From assembly GCA_020355945.1 (NCBI GenBank), contig CP070627.1:1496487-1503707 (forward strand): a DNA stretch of 7,221 bases, read 5' to 3'. Source of the stretch: Candidatus Aminicenantota bacterium (lineage in GTDB: Bacteria > Acidobacteriota > Aminicenantia > UBA2199). Positions 1-7,221 of this stretch are shown here, in pieces; positions within the stretch are counted from its first letter, which is position 1, and each line of letters starts with the position of its first letter. The translations under genes and the position numbers were made by a program. The notes beneath the pieces are model-generated. The model was given only the letters and a program-made list of their open reading frames with translations. It was not told where the DNA came from and did no database searches.

Positions 1-1
1 A

Positions 2-1010
2 TTGGAACATGCCGGGTATGACCCGGGGGTTTACAAAGGCAAGATCGGTCTTTATGCCGGTGCCAGTCCCAATCTATTCTGGGAAATTTCTTCATTAAAA
101 TCGTCTTCTGCGGATGTTTCCTATGCTGAGCAATGGGAAGCGGTTCAATTCAGCGATAAGGATTATCTCAGCACCCGCATCGGGTATAAACTTGATTTAA
201 AAGGCCCCTGTGTCACGCTGCAAACGGCCTGTTCCACATCGTTGGCAGCGGTTGTGCTGGCATGCCGGGAATTATTAAGCGGGGCATGTGATATGGCGCT
301 GGCTGGTGGTGTCTCTGTCACCTTCCACGATGAAAAGGGTTATGTGTACCAGGAAGGGGGAATCATGTCACCGGACGGTCTATGCCGGGCCTTTGATGCC
401 AGGGCCAGGGGAACCGTAGGAGGAAACGGTGCAGGGGTGGTGGTGTTGAAACCCCTTGACACAGCAATTACGGACAGGGATTGTATTCATGCCGTTATCA
501 AAGGTTTTGCCCTTAACAATGACGGAAAAAATAAAGTGGGTTTTACCGCTCCCGGTGTCCAGGGTCAGGCAGAAGTCATTGGCACGGCCCTGCAGGCGGC
601 CGGGATTGAGCCTGAAAGTATCGGGTATATTGAAGCACACGGTACCGGCACTCCCATGGGAGACCCCATTGAAATCGAAGGGTTAAAACTGGCCTTTAAG
701 CCCCGGGCAGGGGCACACTCTTATAAAAAAAATTCCTGTGCTGTCGGGTCGGTGAAAACCAATATCGGGCACCTGGATGCAGCCGCAGGGGCTGTGGGTT
801 TGATCAAAACCGTGCTTGCCTTAAAGCACCGGATGATTCCACCCAGTTTGCATTTTGAAACCCCCAACCCCAAAATCGATTTTGAAAACAGCCCCTTTTA
901 TGTGAATACGGAATTAAAGGAATGGAAAAACCATAAGTACCCGCTGCGGGCCGGGGTCAGCTCGTTTGGAATTGGCGGCACCAATGCGCATGTTATTCTT
1001 GAAGAATCCC
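2..1010 (+). other. Beta-ketoacyl synthase (KS) domain, N-terminally truncated by the window
   Basis: This domain performs decarboxylative Claisen condensation between the upstream acyl chain and the extender unit on the ACP. The catalytic triad is intact: Cys77 in TACSTS (codon 230-232), His213 in HGTGT (638-652) and His257 in NIGHLD (761-778). The domain closes with the usual GVSSFGIGGTNAHVILEE stretch (953-1006). The residue before TACS is Gln (LQTACSTS) rather than the commoner Asp; this variant occurs in active KSs. The window starts at LEHAGYDP, which in typical KSs lies about 100-120 residues in, so the first part is missing and I cannot say whether another module precedes it. Active Cys is present, so it is neither a KSQ decarboxylase nor a KS0. 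Confidence 0.96.
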
Positions 1011-4000
1011 CAAAGGGGACAAGGGGGCTTGGCTCCCTGTCTAAATACCATTTAATCCTATTATCTGCCAAAACCCAGTCCGCCCTGGATAAAATGACCG
1101 AAAATCTAGCGGAATATTTTAAAAAAACTCTTTTAAATCGCGGTAATCATGAGAATCCTACTAATCCTGGTCCAATCCTGGCAGATGCGGCGTATACTTT
1201 ACAAGTAGGCCGAAAACGATTCCCCTACAGGCGAATGCTGGTCTGTTCAACAGTGGATGAGGCCATTGCCATGCTGTCCACTCCCGGCACTCTCGACTGT
1301 CACTACCATCTCTTAAAAGAGGATAAGCCTCCGGTGGTTTTCATGTTTCCCGGGCAGGGTTCCCAGTATGTCAATATGGGACGGGAACTATACGAAAAAG
1401 AGCCGGTATTTCGCCAGGAAATGGACCGCTGTTTTGAAATATTGAAGCCGTTAATGGGTTATGACATCAAAGAAATCCTTTATCCTTCCTCTGTGTCCTC
1501 TGTGTCCTCTGTGGCAAAAAATATAGACCAAACCGAAATGACCCAGCCTCTTCTCTTTGCCTTTGAATATACTCTGGCAAAATTATTAGTAGAATGGGGA
1601 ATCAAACCCGATAGCATGATCGGGCACAGTATCGGTGAATATACGGCTGCTTGTTTATCCGGTATTTTTTCTCCGGAGGAAGCGTTAAAGCTGGTGGTAT
1701 TAAGGGGCCGGCTGGTCCAGCGTCTGCCCGGGGGGGCAATGTTGAGCGCCGCCATTGCAGAAGAAGAACTGGTTCCTCTTTTAAAAGATAAGGCACTTTC
1801 CCTGGCAGCGGTGAATAGCCCGTCACAGTGTGTGGTCTCCGGGACTCACCAGGCTGTTGAGGACTTTGCCCGGGACCTGAAGCAAAAAGGATATGACACC
1901 AGGCCGCTTCACACCTCTCACGCCTTTCATTCGTACATGATGGACCCTGTCTTGGAGGAATTTAAACAAACAGTTATAGGAATGAAGATCAATTTCACCA
2001 AAGCTTCGATCCCTTTTATTTCAAACGTTACAGGAAAGCGGATAACTGTTGAAGAGGCTTCAAATCCCGATTATTGGGTCACCCACCTCAGACGCACGGT
2101 CCGGTTTAACCATGGACTGGCGAAATTATTTGCAATGGAAGGAGCTATTTTTGTGGAAGTGGGACCGGGACGAGCGTTAAGTACGTTTGCCAGGCAGTAT
2201 TTCCAGGAATATAAAGAAAAAGGCCAATGCCCTTTGGTTATAAACCTGGTGCGGCACCCGGGTGAGGACTGCTCAGACTGCCGCACCCTATTCAATCAAA
2301 TCGGCCGGTTATGGCTTTACGGCATAGAAGTCGATTGGCCTGGTTTGCACCGCCAGGAAAAAAGATATCGCATTCCCTTAACCACATATCCCTTTGAGGG
2401 TAAACGTTTCCCGGTTAAAGCGGATTTACCGGGAACCGCGGCCAGGATCCCGGAAGACAAACAACCATTAACTGGAAAACCTGGAATAGCAGACTGGTTT
2501 TACACCCTGGTTTGGGATCAGTCGATCCTGGCAGGCCCCCCTTCAATATCACCCCTTAAAAGAGTGAACTGGTTAATATTCGTGGATTCATGGGGATTGG
2601 GGAGCCGTTTGCTCCGGCAATTGGAAGAAATTGGCTCAAAAGTGACTGCCGTAAGAATCGGACAGCAATTCCAAAAGTCCGGTGACCGGGTATTTACTAT
2701 AAACCCCCAATGCAGCAGCGATTATGATAAACTGTTCCGGGAGTTAAAAAAGTTGAGAATCCTCCCGGGAAAGATTGTTCACTTATGGGGGATCACAGGA
2801 GAAACAGGAAAAGAACCGGGGTTTGATGAGCTCGATTGGCTGCAAGATCAAGGATTTTACAGTCTGCTTAATATTGTCCGGGCAGCAGGTAGACAACATA
2901 TTACCGGTGAAATCGGGTTAGAAGTGCTTTCCGATCGGTTGCATAATGTAACCGGGGACGAGTCGATTGATCCGCTCAAAGCCACAATCCTGGGACCAGT
3001 AAAAGTCATTCCCCTGGAATACCCCAACATCACCTGCCGCAGTATCGATATTGTAAAACCAACGCCAGGGAGTGTGCAGGAGTCAAAACTCCCGGACCGG
3101 TTATTAAAGGAATTTGCACTGCCAATTGAATTCCCGGGCAGTATCATGGCTCTCCGGGGGAATCACCGTTGGGTCCGGAAAATCAAACCCATCCCACTGG
3201 AAAAAAGTAAAACAATTGACCGGCGATTAAAAAAAGGAGGTGTTTACCTGGTGACCGGTGGATTGGGGGGAATTGGCATGGCATTGGCTCAATACCTGGC
3301 AGAGCGTGTAAAAGCCAGGTTGATTTTGGTGGACCCTTCGGCTCTTCCTCCTGCAGGGCAGTGGGAACGGAAATTACAGCAGTTAAAAGCTCATGGCGCT
3401 GAGATCATGACCGCGGCTGCTGATGTTTCTGATATCCGGCAGATGAAAAAAGTGATTGCCCGGGCACTGGAAAGGTTCGGTACCATCGACGGTGTTATCC
3501 ATGCCGCCGGAGTTGTCGATTATAACGGTGTTATCCAGGCAAGGACCAAAGAGATGACCGAAAGTATTATGGCCCCAAAAGTCAAAGGAACCCTGGTGCT
3601 GGACCACCTGTTGAAAAATATTAAACCGGATTTTATCGTTCTTTGTTCTTCTCTAGGAAACATCACCAGGGTGCTTAATTTCGGGCAGGTGGGTTATACC
3701 GCAGCCAATGAATTCCTGGATGCTTATGCCCACTGGAAAAATACTTATGAGGACACCTTCACTGTATCGATTAATTGGCCTACCTGGCAAGGGGTGGGCA
3801 TGGGAAAAGAGGCCCTGCATTGGGCTGAAAAAATAGAAAACCTGGATAATCCCCTCTATCAATCAATACTTGATAATACCATCTCATCCCGGCAAGGAAT
3901 CGAAGCCTTTTGCCGTATCCTCTCAAGCTCCCTGACCCGGGCAGCGGTTTCACCCAAAGACCTGAACATCCTGGTTGACCGATGTAATGCTCTTTCATCA

Positions 4001-7000
4001 GCACCCCTTGGGGAGGCAGAGGCGGTAAAGATAACCGGTACAAGCGGGCGGATGCACCCCAGGCCCCAACTCAGTACAGCATATATTGCCCCCCGGGAAA
4101 AAATAGAAAAAACTCTCGCCAACACCTGGCAAGAATTCTTCAAAATTGAACCGGTGGGGATTCGAGATAATTTCTTTGAGCTGGGAGGAGATTCATTAAA
4201 AGCCATAGGCATGGCTTCAAGAATTCATAAAGAACTAAATGTAGAAATTCCCTTAGCAGAATTCTTTAGCAGACCCAGCATAGAAACTCTTGCCCGATAC
4301 ATCACGGATAAGGCAAAAAAAGAGGCTTATTCATCTATAAAGCCAGCAGAAAAAAAAGAGTATTACATATTATCATCCGCTCAAAAAAGATTATTTGTAC
4401 TCCAGCAGATGGTGCCCGGGACCACTGCTTATAACATATCCTGTCTCCTGCAACTGGAAGGAAGTGTGAAAAGGGAAAAATTGGAAGCGGTTTTCAGCAA
4501 ATTAATCCAACGGTTTGAAAGTTTTGGCACATCCTTTGTTTTGTTAGAGGGGCAACCGGTCCAGAGGATACACCATAACGTGGAAATTAAAGTTGAGGTT
4601 GAGGAAGAGCGGTCCTCAGACTTAGAGGGAACAAGGGGGCTTGCCCCCTTGCCTCTAGAACCCGCAGCCCGCAGCTCGCAGTTGGTAACAGGCACTTTAA
4701 AGAACTTCATCCGGCCATTTGATCTGTCCCGGGCCCCGCTCCTGCGGATAGGATTAACCCGGCTAGAGGAATTCCACCATATTTTGATCATAGATATGCA
4801 TCATATAATTGCAGACGGTACCTCCATCAATGTGTTGATGAAGGATTTTAAGAACCTGTACGCAGGAAAAGACCTGCCTCACCTGGAAATACAGTACAAA
4901 GACTTTTCAGAATGGCAAAACCGGGAACAAGAAAAAGAGGAAGTAAAACAGCAGCGCCTGTACTGGTCGAGGCAATTCCAGGACGATATCCCGGTATTAA
5001 ATTTACCCCTTGATTTTCCCAGGCCGCCGGTTCAAAGCTTTGCAGGAAATCGATTATGTTTCGATATAAATAAACAAGAGGCACATGCTTTAAAAACCTA
5101 TGCCCGGGACCAGGGAATAACATTGTACCTCTTGCTGCTCTCCGTATACGTCATCTTCCTGGCAAAACTAAGTAACCAGGAAGATATTGTAATCGGAACG
5201 CCAATATCAATCCGCAAACATGCGAACCTGGAAAACATCATCGGGATGTTTGCCAATACACTGGCGCTGCGGAATTTTCCCGGACCAGAGAAAAACGTTA
5301 ACCAGTTCCTGGACGAAGTAAAAGAACGGACATTAGGAGCTTTTGCTAACCAGGACTACCCCTTTGAAGAACTGGTAGAAACAGCAGCAGTAGAAAGAAA
5401 TACCAGCCGCAATCCCCTGTTCGACACCATGTTTGTCCTGCAAAATTTTGATACCCCGGCAATAGAAATACCCGGCTTGAAATTAAAACCAATGAATAGT
5501 GAAAACCTTATACAGGTATCGAAATTCGACCTGACCCTCGAGGTAGTGGAGATAGATAACAGGCTGTTTTTTTTCTTTGAATACAGTACAAAATTGTTTA
5601 AAAAAGCAACCATAGAAAGATTTATTCGATATTTCAAGAAGATAGTATCCGCTGTGCCGGCAAGCCCTAAAGCGAAGATATCGGGATTAGAAATCATATC
5701 TGATAAAGAAAAGAAACAGGTATTGTATGATTTTAATAACACTGCGTCGGAATACCCAGGACATAAGATGATCCATGAATTATTCGCGGAACAGACAGGA
5801 AAAACACCCGATCAAATCGCTCTAAAGGGGACAAGGGGGCTTGCCCCCTTGTATATTAGTTACCGGGAATTAAATGAAAAAGCCAGTCAATTGGCTCATC
5901 TATTAATAGAAAAAGGTGTCAAACCCGACACCCTTGTGGCCATCATGATGGAGCGGTCAATAGAGATGATTGTTGGTATCCTGGCAATATTAAAAGCCGG
6001 GGGCGCTTATTTGCCCATTGACCCGGCATATCCCTGGAAACGAATTCAATACGTGTTGGCAGACAGCAATACGAAGATTTTGTTAACCACACCAAAACTC
6101 CAGGTTAAGGTTAAGGCTGAATTTGAGGTTGAAGAGAGATTTATAAAGATAATAGATATTGCCATTCTTTCATCTTTCTCAACCTCAACCTTAACCTGCC
6201 AGGTGAGTCCCACGAACCTGGCTTATGTCATGTATACCTCCGGTTCCACCGGTAGAGCCAAAGCGGTAATAGTAGAGCACAGGAGTGTTGTCAGGCTGGT
6301 AAAAAATACCAATTATATAGAATTCAAGCAAGGCGACCGGATTTTACAAACCGGGGCATTGGATTTTGACGCCTCTACATTTGAAATATGGGGTGCTCTA
6401 TTAAACGGTTTGCTATTGTACCTGGTAAGTAAAGAAACAATATTAATCGCCAAAAAACTGGAAGAGGTGGTGCAGAAAAATGCCATTACCACGATGTGGA
6501 TGACCTCCCCACTGTTTAACCGGATGGTGGATGAGGACTTAGAGATTTTCAAAGGGCTCCGGGACTTGATCGTAGGAGGCGACTTGCTGTCACCCCTGCA
6601 CATCAACCGGGTGCGAGCCAGGTTCCCGGGTTTAAAAGTAACCAATGGCTATGGCCCAACAGAAAACACCACGTTTTCCACCACATTTTTGCCAGACCGG
6701 GAATATAAAAGAAATATTCCCATTGGCAAACCCATTGCCAACTCCACCGTCTACATCATGGATAACTATAATAATCTGCAGCCCATAGGAGTTCCGGGAG
6801 AACTATGTGTTGGTGGTGATGGATTGGCCAGGGGATATTTAAATAATGTTGAACTGACTGCGCAAAAATTCCAACTTCCCAACAAACCCGGATATCATAG
6901 GTCCTATAAGTCTTATAAGTCCTATATTCTTTACCACACCGGCGATTCAGCGCGGTGGTTATCAAATGGCAATATTGAATTCTTAGGACGAACCGACTTC

Positions 7001-7221
7001 CAGGTAAAAATAAGGGGATACAGGATAGAACCGGGCGAAATAGAAACTCATTTACTAAACCACGATAAAATAAATGAAATTGTTGTAACCACAAGGAAAA
7101 GCAAACAAGGTGAAAAATACCTGTGTGCCTATATAATCGCAAAGCGCAAAGCGCAGGGTGCGGAATTACGCGCCTTCCTGGCAAAAGATTTACCGGATTA
7201 TATGATCCCCTCTTATTTTGT
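2..7221 (+). CDS. Hybrid type I PKS-NRPS megasynthase, internal fragment (KS-AT-KR-ACP-C-A)
   Basis: One frame is open across the whole window (2406 complete codons, first at base 2, two bases left over at the end), so both start and stop lie outside. Domains in order: KS (residues 1-336), AT (about 444-745), structural KR (831-1078), catalytic KR (1079-1328), ACP (1365-1437), C (1454-1904), A (1923 to the end). Catalytic signatures seen: KS TACSTS / HGTGT / NIGHLD, AT GHSIGE, KR TGGLGGIG and YTAAN, ACP GGDSL, C HHIIADG, A TSGSTG, GYGPTE and YHTGD. PKS-NRPS assembly lines make polyketide-peptide hybrids on carrier-bound thioesters, and this piece holds one PKS module followed by the first two-thirds of an NRPS module. 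Both halves lie in one polypeptide, so the PKS-to-NRPS transfer is in cis. A PCP is expected just downstream, and roughly the first hundred KS residues upstream. Class assignment is very secure; the natural product cannot be named. Confidence 0.97.
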   Translation, partial: MEHAGYDPGVYKGKIGLYAGASPNLFWEISSLKSSSADVSYAEQWEAVQFSDKDYLSTRIGYKLDLKGPCVTLQTACSTSLAAVVLACRELLSGACDMALAGGVSVTFHDEKGYVYQEGGIMSPDGLCRAFDARARGTVGGNGAGVVVLKPLDTAITDRDCIHAVIKGFALNNDGKNKVGFTAPGVQGQAEVIGTALQAAGIEPESIGYIEAHGTGTPMGDPIEIEGLKLAFKPRAGAHSYKKNSCAVGSVKTNIGHLDAAAGAVGLIKTVLALKHRMIPPSLHFETPNPKIDFENSPFYVNTELKEWKNHKYPLRAGVSSFGIGGTNAHVILEESPKGTRGLGSLSKYHLILLSAKTQSALDKMTENLAEYFKKTLLNRGNHENPTNPGPILADAAYTLQVGRKRFPYRRMLVCSTVDEAIAMLSTPGTLDCHYHLLKEDKPPVVFMFPGQGSQYVNMGRELYEKEPVFRQEMDRCFEILKPLMGYDIKEILYPSSVSSVSSVAKNIDQTEMTQPLLFAFEYTLAKLLVEWGIKPDSMIGHSIGEYTAACLSGIFSPEEALKLVVLRGRLVQRLPGGAMLSAAIAEEELVPLLKDKALSLAAVNSPSQCVVSGTHQAVEDFARDLKQKGYDTRPLHTSHAFHSYMMDPVLEEFKQTVIGMKINFTKASIPFISNVTGKRITVEEASNPDYWVTHLRRTVRFNHGLAKLFAMEGAIFVEVGPGRALSTFARQYFQEYKEKGQCPLVINLVRHPGEDCSDCRTLFNQIGRLWLYGIEVDWPGLHRQEKRYRIPLTTYPFEGKRFPVKADLPGTAARIPEDKQPLTGKPGIADWFYTLVWDQSILAGPPSISPLKRVNWLIFVDSWGLGSRLLRQLEEIGSKVTAVRIGQQFQKSGDRVFTINPQCSSDYDKLFRELKKLRILPGKIVHLWGITGETGKEPGFDELDWLQDQGFYSLLNIVRAAGRQHITGEIGLEVLSDRLHNVTGDESIDPLKATILGPVKVIPLEYPNITCRSIDIVKPTPGSVQESKLPDRLLKEFALPIEFPGSIMALRGNHRWVRKIKPIPLEKSKTIDRRLKKGGVYLVTGGLGGIGMALAQYLAERVKARLILVDPSALPPAGQWERKLQQLKAHGAEIMTAAADVSDIRQMKKVIARALERFGTIDGVIHAAGVVDYNGVIQARTKEMTESIMAPKVKGTLVLDHLLKNIKPDFIVLCSSLGNITRVLNFGQVGYTAANEFLDAYAHWKNTYEDTFTVSINWPTWQGVGMGKEALHWAEKIENLDNPLYQSILDNTISSRQGIEAFCRILSSSLTRAAVSPKDLNILVDRCNALSSAPLGEAEAVKITGTSGRMHPRPQLSTAYIAPREKIEKTLANTWQEFFKIEPVGIRDNFFELGGDSLKAIGMASRIHKELNVEIPLAEFFSRPSIETLARYITDKAKKEAYSSIKPAEKKEYYILSSAQKRLFVLQQMVPGTTAYNISCLLQLEGSVKREKLEAVFSKLIQRFESFGTSFVLLEGQPVQRIHHNVEIKVEVEEERSSDLEGTRGLAPLPLEPAARSSQLVTGTLKNFIRPFDLSRAPLLRIGLTRLEEFHHILIIDMHHIIADGTSINVLMKDFKNLYAGKDLPHLEIQYKDFSEWQNREQEKEEVKQQRLYWSRQFQDDIPVLNLPLDFPRPPVQSFAGNRLCFDINKQEAHALKTYARDQGITLYLLLLSVYVIFLAKLSNQEDIVIGTPISIRKHANLENIIGMFANTLALRNFPGPEKNVNQFLDEVKERTLGAFANQDYPFEELVETAAVERNTSRNPLFDTMFVLQNFDTPAIEIPGLKLKPMNSENLIQVSKFDLTLEVVEIDNRLFFFFEYSTKLFKKATIERFIRYFKKIVSAVPASPKAKISGLEIISDKEKKQVLYDFNNTASEYPGHKMIHELFAEQTGKTPDQIALKGTRGLAPLYISYRELNEKASQLAHLLIEKGVKPDTLVAIMMERSIEMIVGILAILKAGGAYLPIDPAYPWKRIQYVLADSNTKILLTTPKLQVKVKAEFEVEERFIKIIDIAILSSFSTSTLTCQVSPTNLAYVMYTSGSTGRAKAVIVEHRSVVRLVKNTNYIEFKQGDRILQTGALDFDASTFEIWGALLNGLLLYLVSKETILIAKKLEEVVQKNAITTMWMTSPLFNRMVDEDLEIFKGLRDLIVGGDLLSPLHINRVRARFPGLKVTNGYGPTENTTFSTTFLPDREYKRNIPIGKPIANSTVYIMDNYNNLQPIGVPGELCVGGDGLARGYLNNVELTAQKFQLPNKPGYHRSYKSYKSYILYHTGDSARWLSNGNIEFLGRTDFQVKIRGYRIEPGEIETHLLNHDKINEIVVTTRKSKQGEKYLCAYIIAKRKAQGAELRAFLAKDLPDYMIPSYF
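1012..1040 (+). repeat. GC-rich palindromic element, copy 1 (degenerate), in frame
   Basis: Bases 1012-1031 are identical to 5824-5843 (20 bases). The right arm has drifted (ggctccctgt rather than gcccccttgt), leaving three mismatches in the 10-bp stem. It encodes KGTRGLGSL (residues 338-346) immediately after the last KS strand, at the KS-AT boundary. Confidence 0.85.
1145..1171 (+). repeat. 9-bp-period direct repeat, three units, in frame (NHE-NPT-NPG)
   Basis: The units are aatcatgag, aatcctact and aatcctggt, each exactly three codons, followed by a further partial aatcctgg (1174-1181) out of register. It lies in the KS-AT linker, between a helix ending FKKTLL and the conserved LADAAYTL segment. 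Confidence 0.7.
1331..2236 (+). other. Acyltransferase (AT) domain, predicted malonyl-CoA specific
   Basis: The AT loads the extender unit from CoA onto the ACP. It opens with VVFMFPGQGSQY (about 1334-1369), has the nucleophile Ser543 in GHSIGE (1622-1639), and has HAFH at residues 640-643 (1919-1930). In cis-AT PKSs, HAFH is associated with malonyl-CoA, whereas YASH marks methylmalonyl-CoA. It ends near EVGPGRALSTFARQ (about 2156-2197). The presence of this AT makes the module cis-AT. An in-frame triple SSV repeat (residues 496-504) sits between KEILYPS and the TEMTQPLLF helix region, probably a surface loop. A post-AT linker ending in TTYPFEGKRF (to about 2408) follows, the usual end of AT-linker regions. 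Domain identity is very secure; substrate is an inference from one motif. Confidence 0.95.
1487..1513 (+). repeat. Perfect triple 9-bp direct repeat (tcctctgtg x3), in frame
   Basis: There are three identical tandem units in register with the codons, encoding SSVSSVSSV (residues 496-504) within the AT. Read on the other strand it is cacagagga repeated, a motif I associate with dispersed repeats found in environmental bacterial genomes (from memory). Confidence 0.92.
2492..3235 (+). other. Structural (pseudo) KR subdomain, no DH or ER present
   Basis: From DWFYTLVWDQS (starting at base 2492) to just before the Gly-rich loop, this stretch has the layout of the catalytically inactive Rossmann-like half that pairs with the KR in modular PKSs. 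Family-like segments include KIVHLWGI, FYSLLNIVRA, IGLEVLSDRLHNVTGDE, LGPVKVIPLEYPNITCRSID and ALRGNHRWVRK. It is about 248 residues, a normal size for such a subdomain. The dehydratase HxxxGxxxxP motif and the enoylreductase NADPH motif were looked for between AT and KR and not seen. The module is therefore expected to stop at the beta-hydroxy stage. Confidence 0.85.
3236..3985 (+). other. Ketoreductase (KR) domain with intact catalytic tetrad
   Basis: This domain should reduce the beta-keto group on the ACP to a hydroxyl. It is an SDR fold with the nucleotide-binding loop TGGLGGIG (3254-3277, residues 1085-1092). The tetrad is present: Lys1193 in APKVKG (3578), Ser1217 in CSSLGN (3650), Tyr1232 and Asn1236 in GYTAANEFLD (3695 and 3707). 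Ser and Tyr are 15 residues apart, two more than in many actinobacterial KRs. The end of the second beta strand reads LILVDPS where active NADPH-dependent KRs usually have an Arg (G-R-S type), so cofactor use may differ. The usual LDD stereochemical marker reads VDY (after HAAGV), so the B-type marker is incomplete, and the A-type Trp is not evident. Stereochemistry is unassigned. The C-terminal tail to about 3985 (SRQGIEAFCRIL) belongs to the fold. Confidence 0.93.
4094..4313 (+). other. Acyl carrier protein (ACP), PCP-like motif, at the PKS-to-NRPS junction
   Basis: This carrier holds the growing chain as a thioester on a phosphopantetheine arm. The attachment site is Ser1398 in FFELGGDSLKA (codon 4193-4195). 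Helix 1 is REKIEKTLANTWQEFF; the domain closes with PSIETLARYI. The GGDS wording resembles peptidyl carriers, and it sits directly upstream of a condensation domain, consistent with a carrier that docks to an NRPS C domain. A short variable segment (about 3986-4093) separates it from the KR, and a lysine-rich linker of about 16 residues separates it from the C domain. Only one carrier is present in this module. Confidence 0.96.
4592..4604 (+). repeat. Short gttgag direct repeat, two units
   Basis: gttgag occurs twice in tandem followed by g, encoding part of KVEVEEE. It is short and could be ordinary coding sequence, but it has the same wording as the inverted-repeat arms at 6101-6198 (aggttgagg type) and starts a cluster of three repeat types in 90 bases. 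Confidence 0.4.
4624..4657 (+). repeat. GC-rich palindromic element, copy 2, in frame
   Basis: The core acaagggggc (4631-4640) and gcccccttg (4643-4651) form a stem with a tt centre. Outer arms tagagg (4624-4629) and cctcta (4652-4657) extend the symmetry. The 21-base core 4631-4651 is identical to 5831-5851. It encodes EGTRGLAPL (residues 1542-1550) in an extra loop of the C domain. Confidence 0.9.
4661..4681 (+). repeat. 7-bp-period direct repeat, three units
   Basis: The units are cccgcag, cccgcag and ctcgcag. The period is not a multiple of three, so the units encode different residues (within EPAARSSQL), but the total length of three units (21 bases) keeps the frame. It lies four bases after palindromic copy 2, in the same C-domain loop. 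Confidence 0.8.
5824..5852 (+). repeat. GC-rich palindromic element, copy 3 (best preserved), in frame
   Basis: Arms acaagggggc (5831-5840) and gcccccttgt (5843-5852) are perfect 10-bp inverted repeats around tt. It encodes KGTRGLAPL (residues 1942-1950) between DQIAL and YISYREL near the start of the A domain, where family members usually have a short beta-hairpin (roughly four residues fewer). Confidence 0.92.
6101..6198 (+). repeat. Interrupted inverted repeat inside the A domain
   Basis: The right arm is 6179-6198 (20 bases). Its complement matches the left arm in two blocks, caggttaaggtt (6101-6112) and gaggttga (6125-6132), separated by an extra 12 bases (6113-6124, four codons). The arms flank about 46 bases. 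It encodes the variable segment between LLTTPK and VSPTNLAYVMYTSGS, just upstream of motif A3. Confidence 0.85.
6902..6928 (+). repeat. 9-bp-period direct repeat, three units, in frame (SYK-SYK-SYI)
   Basis: The units are tcctataag, tcttataag and tcctatatt, each three codons. It lies just before motif A7 (YHTGD), in the loop that varies in length among A domains. Differences between units are two or fewer bases for the first pair. Confidence 0.85.
7139..7155 (+). repeat. 7-bp-period direct repeat (gcaaagc x2 plus partial)
   Basis: gcaaagc occurs twice in tandem followed by gca. It encodes AKRKAQ between the strand YLCAYII and helix ELRAFLAK in the A-domain C-terminal subdomain, a loop of variable length in the family. 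Confidence 0.6.

Follow-up and report, generated by a model that had tools for sequence, protein, structure and literature searches.

Short palindromic DNA repeats are known from inside bacterial protein-coding genes. Rickettsia palindromic elements (RPEs), which are 105–146 bp long (PMC2229807), lie in frame within protein genes and add a conserved peptide at tolerated sites (PMC10969869; PMC2229807). Intragenic repetitive extragenic palindromes (REPs) are stem-loops of 20–40 bp that sometimes lie inside open reading frames, even twice in one frame, and that occupy nearly the same position in two recB genes (PMC3733652). Coding miniature inverted-repeat transposable elements (MITEs), such as ERIC, Correia, and YPAL/RU-2, are short repeats joined in frame to genes (PMC2229807). 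Here, we describe a palindromic DNA repeat with a conserved unit of 27 nt in a 7,221-nt stretch of a Candidatus Aminicenantota genome (contig CP070627.1, positions 1,496,487–1,503,707; the whole stretch is hereafter called the window). Three copies lie in the window, all on the + strand and in one frame of a gene for a hybrid polyketide synthase–nonribosomal peptide synthetase (PKS–NRPS), where they read (E/K)GTRGL(A/G)(P/S)L. The repeat search reported them as family D1 at 1012–1043, 4624–4655, and 5824–5855, and the nine-codon units are as follows:

1013–1039, + strand: copy 1, KGTRGLGSL, in the KS–AT linker; imperfect hairpin; no net length gain
4625–4651, + strand: copy 2, EGTRGLAPL, in the C-domain loop before FIRPFDL; hairpin including the outer stem at 4622–4658
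5825–5851, + strand: copy 3, KGTRGLAPL, in the A-domain N-terminal turn before ISYRELN

The spacings between the copies, 3612 and 1200 nt, are both multiples of three within one open frame. Copy 1 is encoded by AAG GGG ACA AGG GGG CTT GGC TCC CTG, copy 2 by GAG GGA ACA AGG GGG CTT GCC CCC TTG, and copy 3 by AAG GGG ACA AGG GGG CTT GCC CCC TTG. In sequence form the repeat is GAGGGRACAAGGGGGCTTGCCCCCTTG-like, and its 21-nt core, allowing up to three mismatches, gave five matches over both strands of the window (at three places) and none in 200 dinucleotide shuffles. An earlier reading of the window made from its letters alone (hereafter the sequence-only reading) had proposed three copies of a palindromic element in one gene and one frame, and this was borne out by the repeat search, the spacings, and the codons. 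Its figure of 20–21 identical bases pairwise held as contiguous identity for copies 2 and 3 (21 nt) and copies 1 and 3 (20 nt), but not for copies 1 and 2, which share only 13 nt. The hairpins it had described were also recovered: they span about 20–37 nt and are near perfect in copies 2 and 3, with cores of 8–9 bp and an additional 7-bp outer stem in copy 2, and imperfect and worn in copy 1. Predicted hairpin energies ranged from −18 to −23 kcal/mol, with modest folding z-scores of −1.8, −2.6, and −1.6 for copies 1, 2, and 3, respectively. Alignment to solved structures agreed with its placing of the copies at linkers or loops, copy 2 lying within an insert of about 21 amino acids (aa) in the C-domain loop (TycC, 2jgp) and copy 3 corresponding to a net gain of 4 aa at the turn preceding the ISYRELN strand (LgrA). 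Its view of a DNA repeat rather than shared ancestry of the domains was likewise upheld, and so was recurrence at unrelated loops in one frame.

The element recurs in loops of assembly-line enzymes of Candidatus Aminicenantes, at four loop types. Three protein searches, each taking the best 120 of several thousand matches, yielded 328 distinct megasynthases, and scanning these for GTRGLAPL with up to two mismatches returned 67 matches in 34 proteins; three matches, GTR(I/V)LARL in KR domains, were dropped as look-alikes. The 64 copies retained, including the three of the window, occur in 31 of the 328 megasynthases and all in one frame. They are distributed over the C-domain loop (38), the A-domain N-terminus (18), the A-domain loop before TGD (4), and the KS–AT linker (4), with 62 sites assigned by rule and two (in P0063 and P0093) by eye. 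Twelve carriers had an organism name, which was Candidatus Aminicenantes for 11 and Acidobacteriota for one, and at least seven other proteins named Aminicenantes are without the element (P0007, P0023, P0035, P0039, P0080, P0088, and P0289). C loops with the element had a median length of 46.5 aa vs. 27 aa without it, and A-domain N-termini 25 vs. 6 aa. In the C loops found by loop pattern, 337 of 371 lacked the element; in the carrier proteins, 34 of 62 C loops held it. A departure from the octamer GTRGLAPL was seen in 20 of the 64 copies.

For copies outside the window, codon traces were read from protein residues. With the codon usage of the window, the chance that two codings of TRGLAPL match in all seven codons is 7 × 10−5, and that three codings of TRGL match 3 × 10−5. 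Variant residues were of 18 kinds (26 cases among the 62 rule-placed copies, the window's included), every one of them one base away from the window codons; among them are five Arg-to-Met changes, which are reachable from AGG only. The residue preceding GTRGLAPL (n = 64) was E in 54 copies, K in seven, G in two, and D in one, each compatible with GAG or with a codon one base from it; this fits a GAG codon within the unit, which would thus comprise nine codons. Because the variants are all single-base steps from the window codons, the shared unit is, on this codon evidence, DNA and not peptide. The sequence-only reading had named two outcomes that would count against it. GTRGLAPL in unrelated domains with different codons was encountered in appearance only, given these single-base steps and the organism names of the carriers; absence of the core from the rest of the genome was tested in part, and on the contig assigned by inference to the window, 13 copies were found in six of the seven proteins fetched, all megasynthases.

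All six frames of the 21-nt core are open. At up to one mismatch, the words of the other five frames gave no match of their own in the 328 proteins; the frame −2 word RGQAPLS had 18 matches, all of them RGLAPLS within copies in the usual frame. The tandem nonamer GGTCCTATA, also present in these proteins, uses three frames (SYR, 14 proteins; YRT, three; GPI, two), and cores found in other phyla (see below) occur in six, indicating that openness alone does not force one frame.

Presence and absence of the element were followed on quick domain trees from which the loop columns had been removed; starred branches are well supported, and gain and loss were not distinguished. The 31 carriers gave 82 near-full C domains, of which 37 hold the element; the tree of these domains required 24 switches, 13 of them forced by starred branches. 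This is little below the mean of 27 for shuffled labels, and 51–67 of 500 shuffles were as low. The A-domain tree comprised 83 near-full domains, 15 of them bearing an N-terminal copy (the remaining copies at this site were in domains that fell short of near-full length or were missed by the column rule); it had 11 switches, of which 10 were forced by starred branches, and a shuffled mean of 14. In the best 70 of 249 KS domains, four of which carry the element, there were four switches, one of them forced. Three pairs of C domains with 72, 75, and 80% identity (P0325/P0062 twice and P0319/P0097) had the element in one member and an unrelated loop in the other, and other close C-domain pairs had the element in common.

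Unrelated mini-repeats, absent from the sequence-only reading, were observed in the same loops and elsewhere in the window:

1487–1513, + strand: tandem nonamer (TCCTCTGTG)3 encoding SSVSSVSSV within a loop of the AT domain
4661–4681, + strand: tandem heptamer (CCCGCAG)3 encoding PAARSSQ, in the loop of copy 2 and a short way downstream of that copy
6101–6198, no strand assigned: hexamer repeats AGGTTA / CTCAAC, inverted arms around the A-domain loop before the YTSGSTG motif
6897–6926, + strand: tandem nonamer (ATAAGTCCT)3.3 encoding RSYKSYKSY, lengthening the A-domain loop ahead of YHTGD by about 10 aa
7138–7155, + strand: tandem heptamer (CGCAAAG)2.6, in the C-terminal part of the A domain

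The hexamer arms constitute a second inverted repeat within the gene, read KLQVKVKAE...FSTSTLTCQVSP. Peptides of the PAARSPQ type, corresponding to the heptamer, were present in 15 of the 62 C loops of carriers vs. none of 309 in other proteins, and EVEVKV-type peptides in seven vs. two of the same loops; further repeat types tried in C loops were rare in carriers and others alike. STST, TSTS, or STLT words before LAY..YTSGSTG were found in 14 of 51 loops of element-bearing proteins vs. nine of 372 loops of others. In P0013, P0046, P0017, and P0093, HELHEL preceded the ITYRELN strand of the A domain and SPHSPH preceded TGD, which suggests more tandem DNA repeats in the same loops.

Other genomes, titled for the most part as Bacteroidota or Betaproteobacteria, also contain the exact 21-nt core, which was detected in at least 120 of their stretches; counted over both strands, a single genome had as many as 88 near-exact matches. 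Of 121 such cores, 41 lay inside open stretches of 120 or more codons vs. 105 expected (42 by the border rule), and 21 inside open stretches of 250 or more codons vs. 88 expected. The 25 cores in open stretches of 200 or more codons, which are open frames and not verified genes and several of which come from one genome, span six frames (5/8/5/1/2/4). The flanks of the core differed from genome to genome, RAGGGR was found ahead of it at none of the 121 places in other genomes, and the core was found in none of 300 other Chloroflexota genomes (one of 301 counting the seed); common ancestry of the core across phyla was rejected on these three grounds. From its avoidance of open stretches and its different flanks, we read these cores as intergenic look-alikes rather than kin, and they are probably convergent GC-rich hairpins. 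A backwards control of the core gave no match in 38 genomes, and is biased since these genomes were chosen for having the core. Y1_Tnp was found in nine of 12 other genomes holding the core. In three Bacteroidota-titled genomes, open frames of 1211–1295 codons contain a weak Y1-transposase domain, with look-alike palindromes at a distance of 35–145 bases from the domain (G001:C41:25788-26073, G006:C74:3409-3748, and G028:C56:76607-76850), and in G001 (locus L001) the exact core lay inside such a frame; these possibly represent an unusually large REP-associated transposase. The 88 near-exact matches belong to a Betaproteobacteria metagenome-assembled genome (G004, locus L005), with flanks gggggatat...ttcagtgaatcc, in which Y1_Tnp had no match.

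We consider it probable that a REP/RPE-like palindrome has colonized the loops and linkers of assembly-line enzymes in Candidatus Aminicenantes. The palindrome would enter, or be copied into, permissive loops, where its nine-codon unit would leave the host frame intact while adding (E/K)GTRGLAPL; copies that lie in the usual frame within tolerant loops would persist, later drift, and then be lost or overwritten by other mini-repeats. Identity of the DNA in the window, the codon trace elsewhere, the one frame, the four loop types, and the many presence/absence switches are established by the analysis. Spread would have occurred by insertion of a dispersed element, with the frame held by peptide selection or by an insertion preference.

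Several observations weigh against this reading. The DNA of the element was seen in the window alone, the other copies of the lineage being seen as protein, and the proteins scanned were all megasynthases, so that a preference of the element for megasynthases cannot be claimed. Copy 1 had a net change of −1 aa in the KS–AT linker (alignment to structure 8xjy), meaning that it substitutes for linker sequence without lengthening it; the word "inserted" in the sequence-only reading is overstated for copy 1 and for copy 3, with its small gain. When two mismatches were allowed, a set of 120 proteins plus the window gave 7, 4, 6, and 0 matches to the frame words +1, +2, −1, and −0 vs. 71/7/0, 1/0/1, 5/3/6, and 0/0/0 for shuffled words, so the counts resemble those of shuffled words except for +2 (4 vs. 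0–1); the +2 words fall outside the loops considered here. A C loop of P0046 (residue 3437) contains one +1 word, GPGGLVP, which could be a worn copy read in the usual frame or else a genuine exception. The presence of the element among A domains was mildly clustered (4–5 of 500 shuffles as low), the quick trees do not separate gain from loss, and NRPS domains recombine. Finally, C-loop copies often have flanks in common (PAARSPQPAA...ISSFIRPFDL), as would be expected if they were copied together with the module.

The shared flanks also belong to an alternative that we regard as possible but doubtful, in which each loop type received a single founder insertion that then multiplied along with its module through duplication and gene conversion among assembly-line genes, so that the frame was inherited and not selected. 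Four founders in one frame would suffice, and near-identical A-domain N-terminal contexts in proteins assigned by inference to the window's contig (HG.W.MEKHLKGTRGLAPLY twice in P0285 and a similar context in P0003) are in line with such copying. However, the four loop types lie in unrelated folds, A-domain presence requires at least 10 switches across starred branches, unlike flanks are common among carriers, and the KS carriers do not group, even if starred branches force only one switch there. The one frame and the position at linkers and turns could instead mean that GTRGLAPL is a linker or docking peptide, arrived at or retained for function. This is unlikely, as the codon traces fit a single DNA unit, almost a third of the copies differ from the octamer, and related domains do without it or have unrelated sequence in its place, as most C loops do. 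It is also quite unlikely that the hairpin acts as a nucleic acid, either as a translational pause near domain borders or as a seed of recombination for module exchange, with the peptide as a by-product: the predicted hairpin energies would suit such a role, but folding is only 1.6–2.6 standard deviations better than in shuffles, copy 1 is imperfect, and the one frame would be left unexplained. Chance or low-complexity convergence, to which the core with other flanks in unrelated phyla might point, is already refuted for the window by the shuffles and is very improbable in view of the number of copies in the megasynthases.

Beyond the spread of a single palindrome, and more tentatively, a handful of fixed NRPS and PKS loops in Aminicenantes may serve as landing strips for a community of mini-repeats, comprising the one-frame palindrome and several tandem repeats, that turns over fast enough to differ between domains at 72–80% identity, with either frame-specific insertion (a targeting rule linked to codon structure) or strict peptide selection. 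If so, whichever of the two applies would be new, and the landing-strip repeats could also seed module recombination. The loops mark insert-tolerant positions in NRPS and PKS domains, which is useful to engineers.

The host gene fills almost the whole window, and its product has the domain order KS-AT-KR-PCP-C-A:

2–7219, + strand: host gene, hybrid PKS–NRPS (part), a single open frame that is open at both ends
within the host gene: KS domain (part)
1337–2293, + strand: AT domain
3239–3790, + strand: KR domain
4112–4303, + strand: PCP domain
4355–5722, + strand: C domain
5783–6841, + strand: A domain

The window (1–7221) corresponds almost exactly to one database protein of 2407 residues, encoded on a 9.13-Mb contig (9,131,798 bases); this protein, P0126, was 100% identical over the query. 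Several other megasynthases of this contig are labelled partial, and it is possibly a gapped scaffold. No known RNA family scored above its gathering score in the window. At the DNA level, neither the window nor a 31-nt piece of it found a match among plasmids; protein matches of plasmids, like those of phages, were NRPS-like with less than 60% identity. In viral contigs, neither the 21-nt core nor a locus related to the window was found.

Among the literature matches listed, none reported a repeat or palindrome for Aminicenantes or for genes of NRPSs or PKSs. Intragenic repeats of bacteria have been described before, but one that keeps to a single frame and returns at the same loops was absent from the literature searched. 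The repeat resembles RPEs in being a palindrome in frame within protein genes that encodes a conserved peptide. In contrast to the RPEs, it has a 27-nt unit and a hairpin of at most about 37 nt, and this size places it outside the RPEs. RPEs further occur in varied genes and in intergenic regions, whereas the Aminicenantes repeat belongs to another phylum and was found in one frame in megasynthases, the sole proteins searched. With the REPs of the GTAG and CGTC superfamilies it has the 20–40 bp stem-loop and the intragenic location in common, but neither tag was seen beside any of the three window copies when the flanks were read by eye, and it is not assigned to these superfamilies because the tag is missing. 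MITEs, with about 100–200 bp and terminal inverted repeats, are several times longer. The likeness to RPEs drawn by the sequence-only reading thus stands for the behavior of a coding-compatible palindromic repeat and not for membership, and its interpretation overall is partly supported. By analogy, the repeat would work like RPEs and intragenic REPs, and an intragenic REP-like repeat is the best reading. Intragenic palindromes described before are scattered; here, one enzyme class offers dozens of comparable filled and empty sites in related domains, through which the entry of such repeats, the survival of their frame, and their effect on the enzyme become testable.

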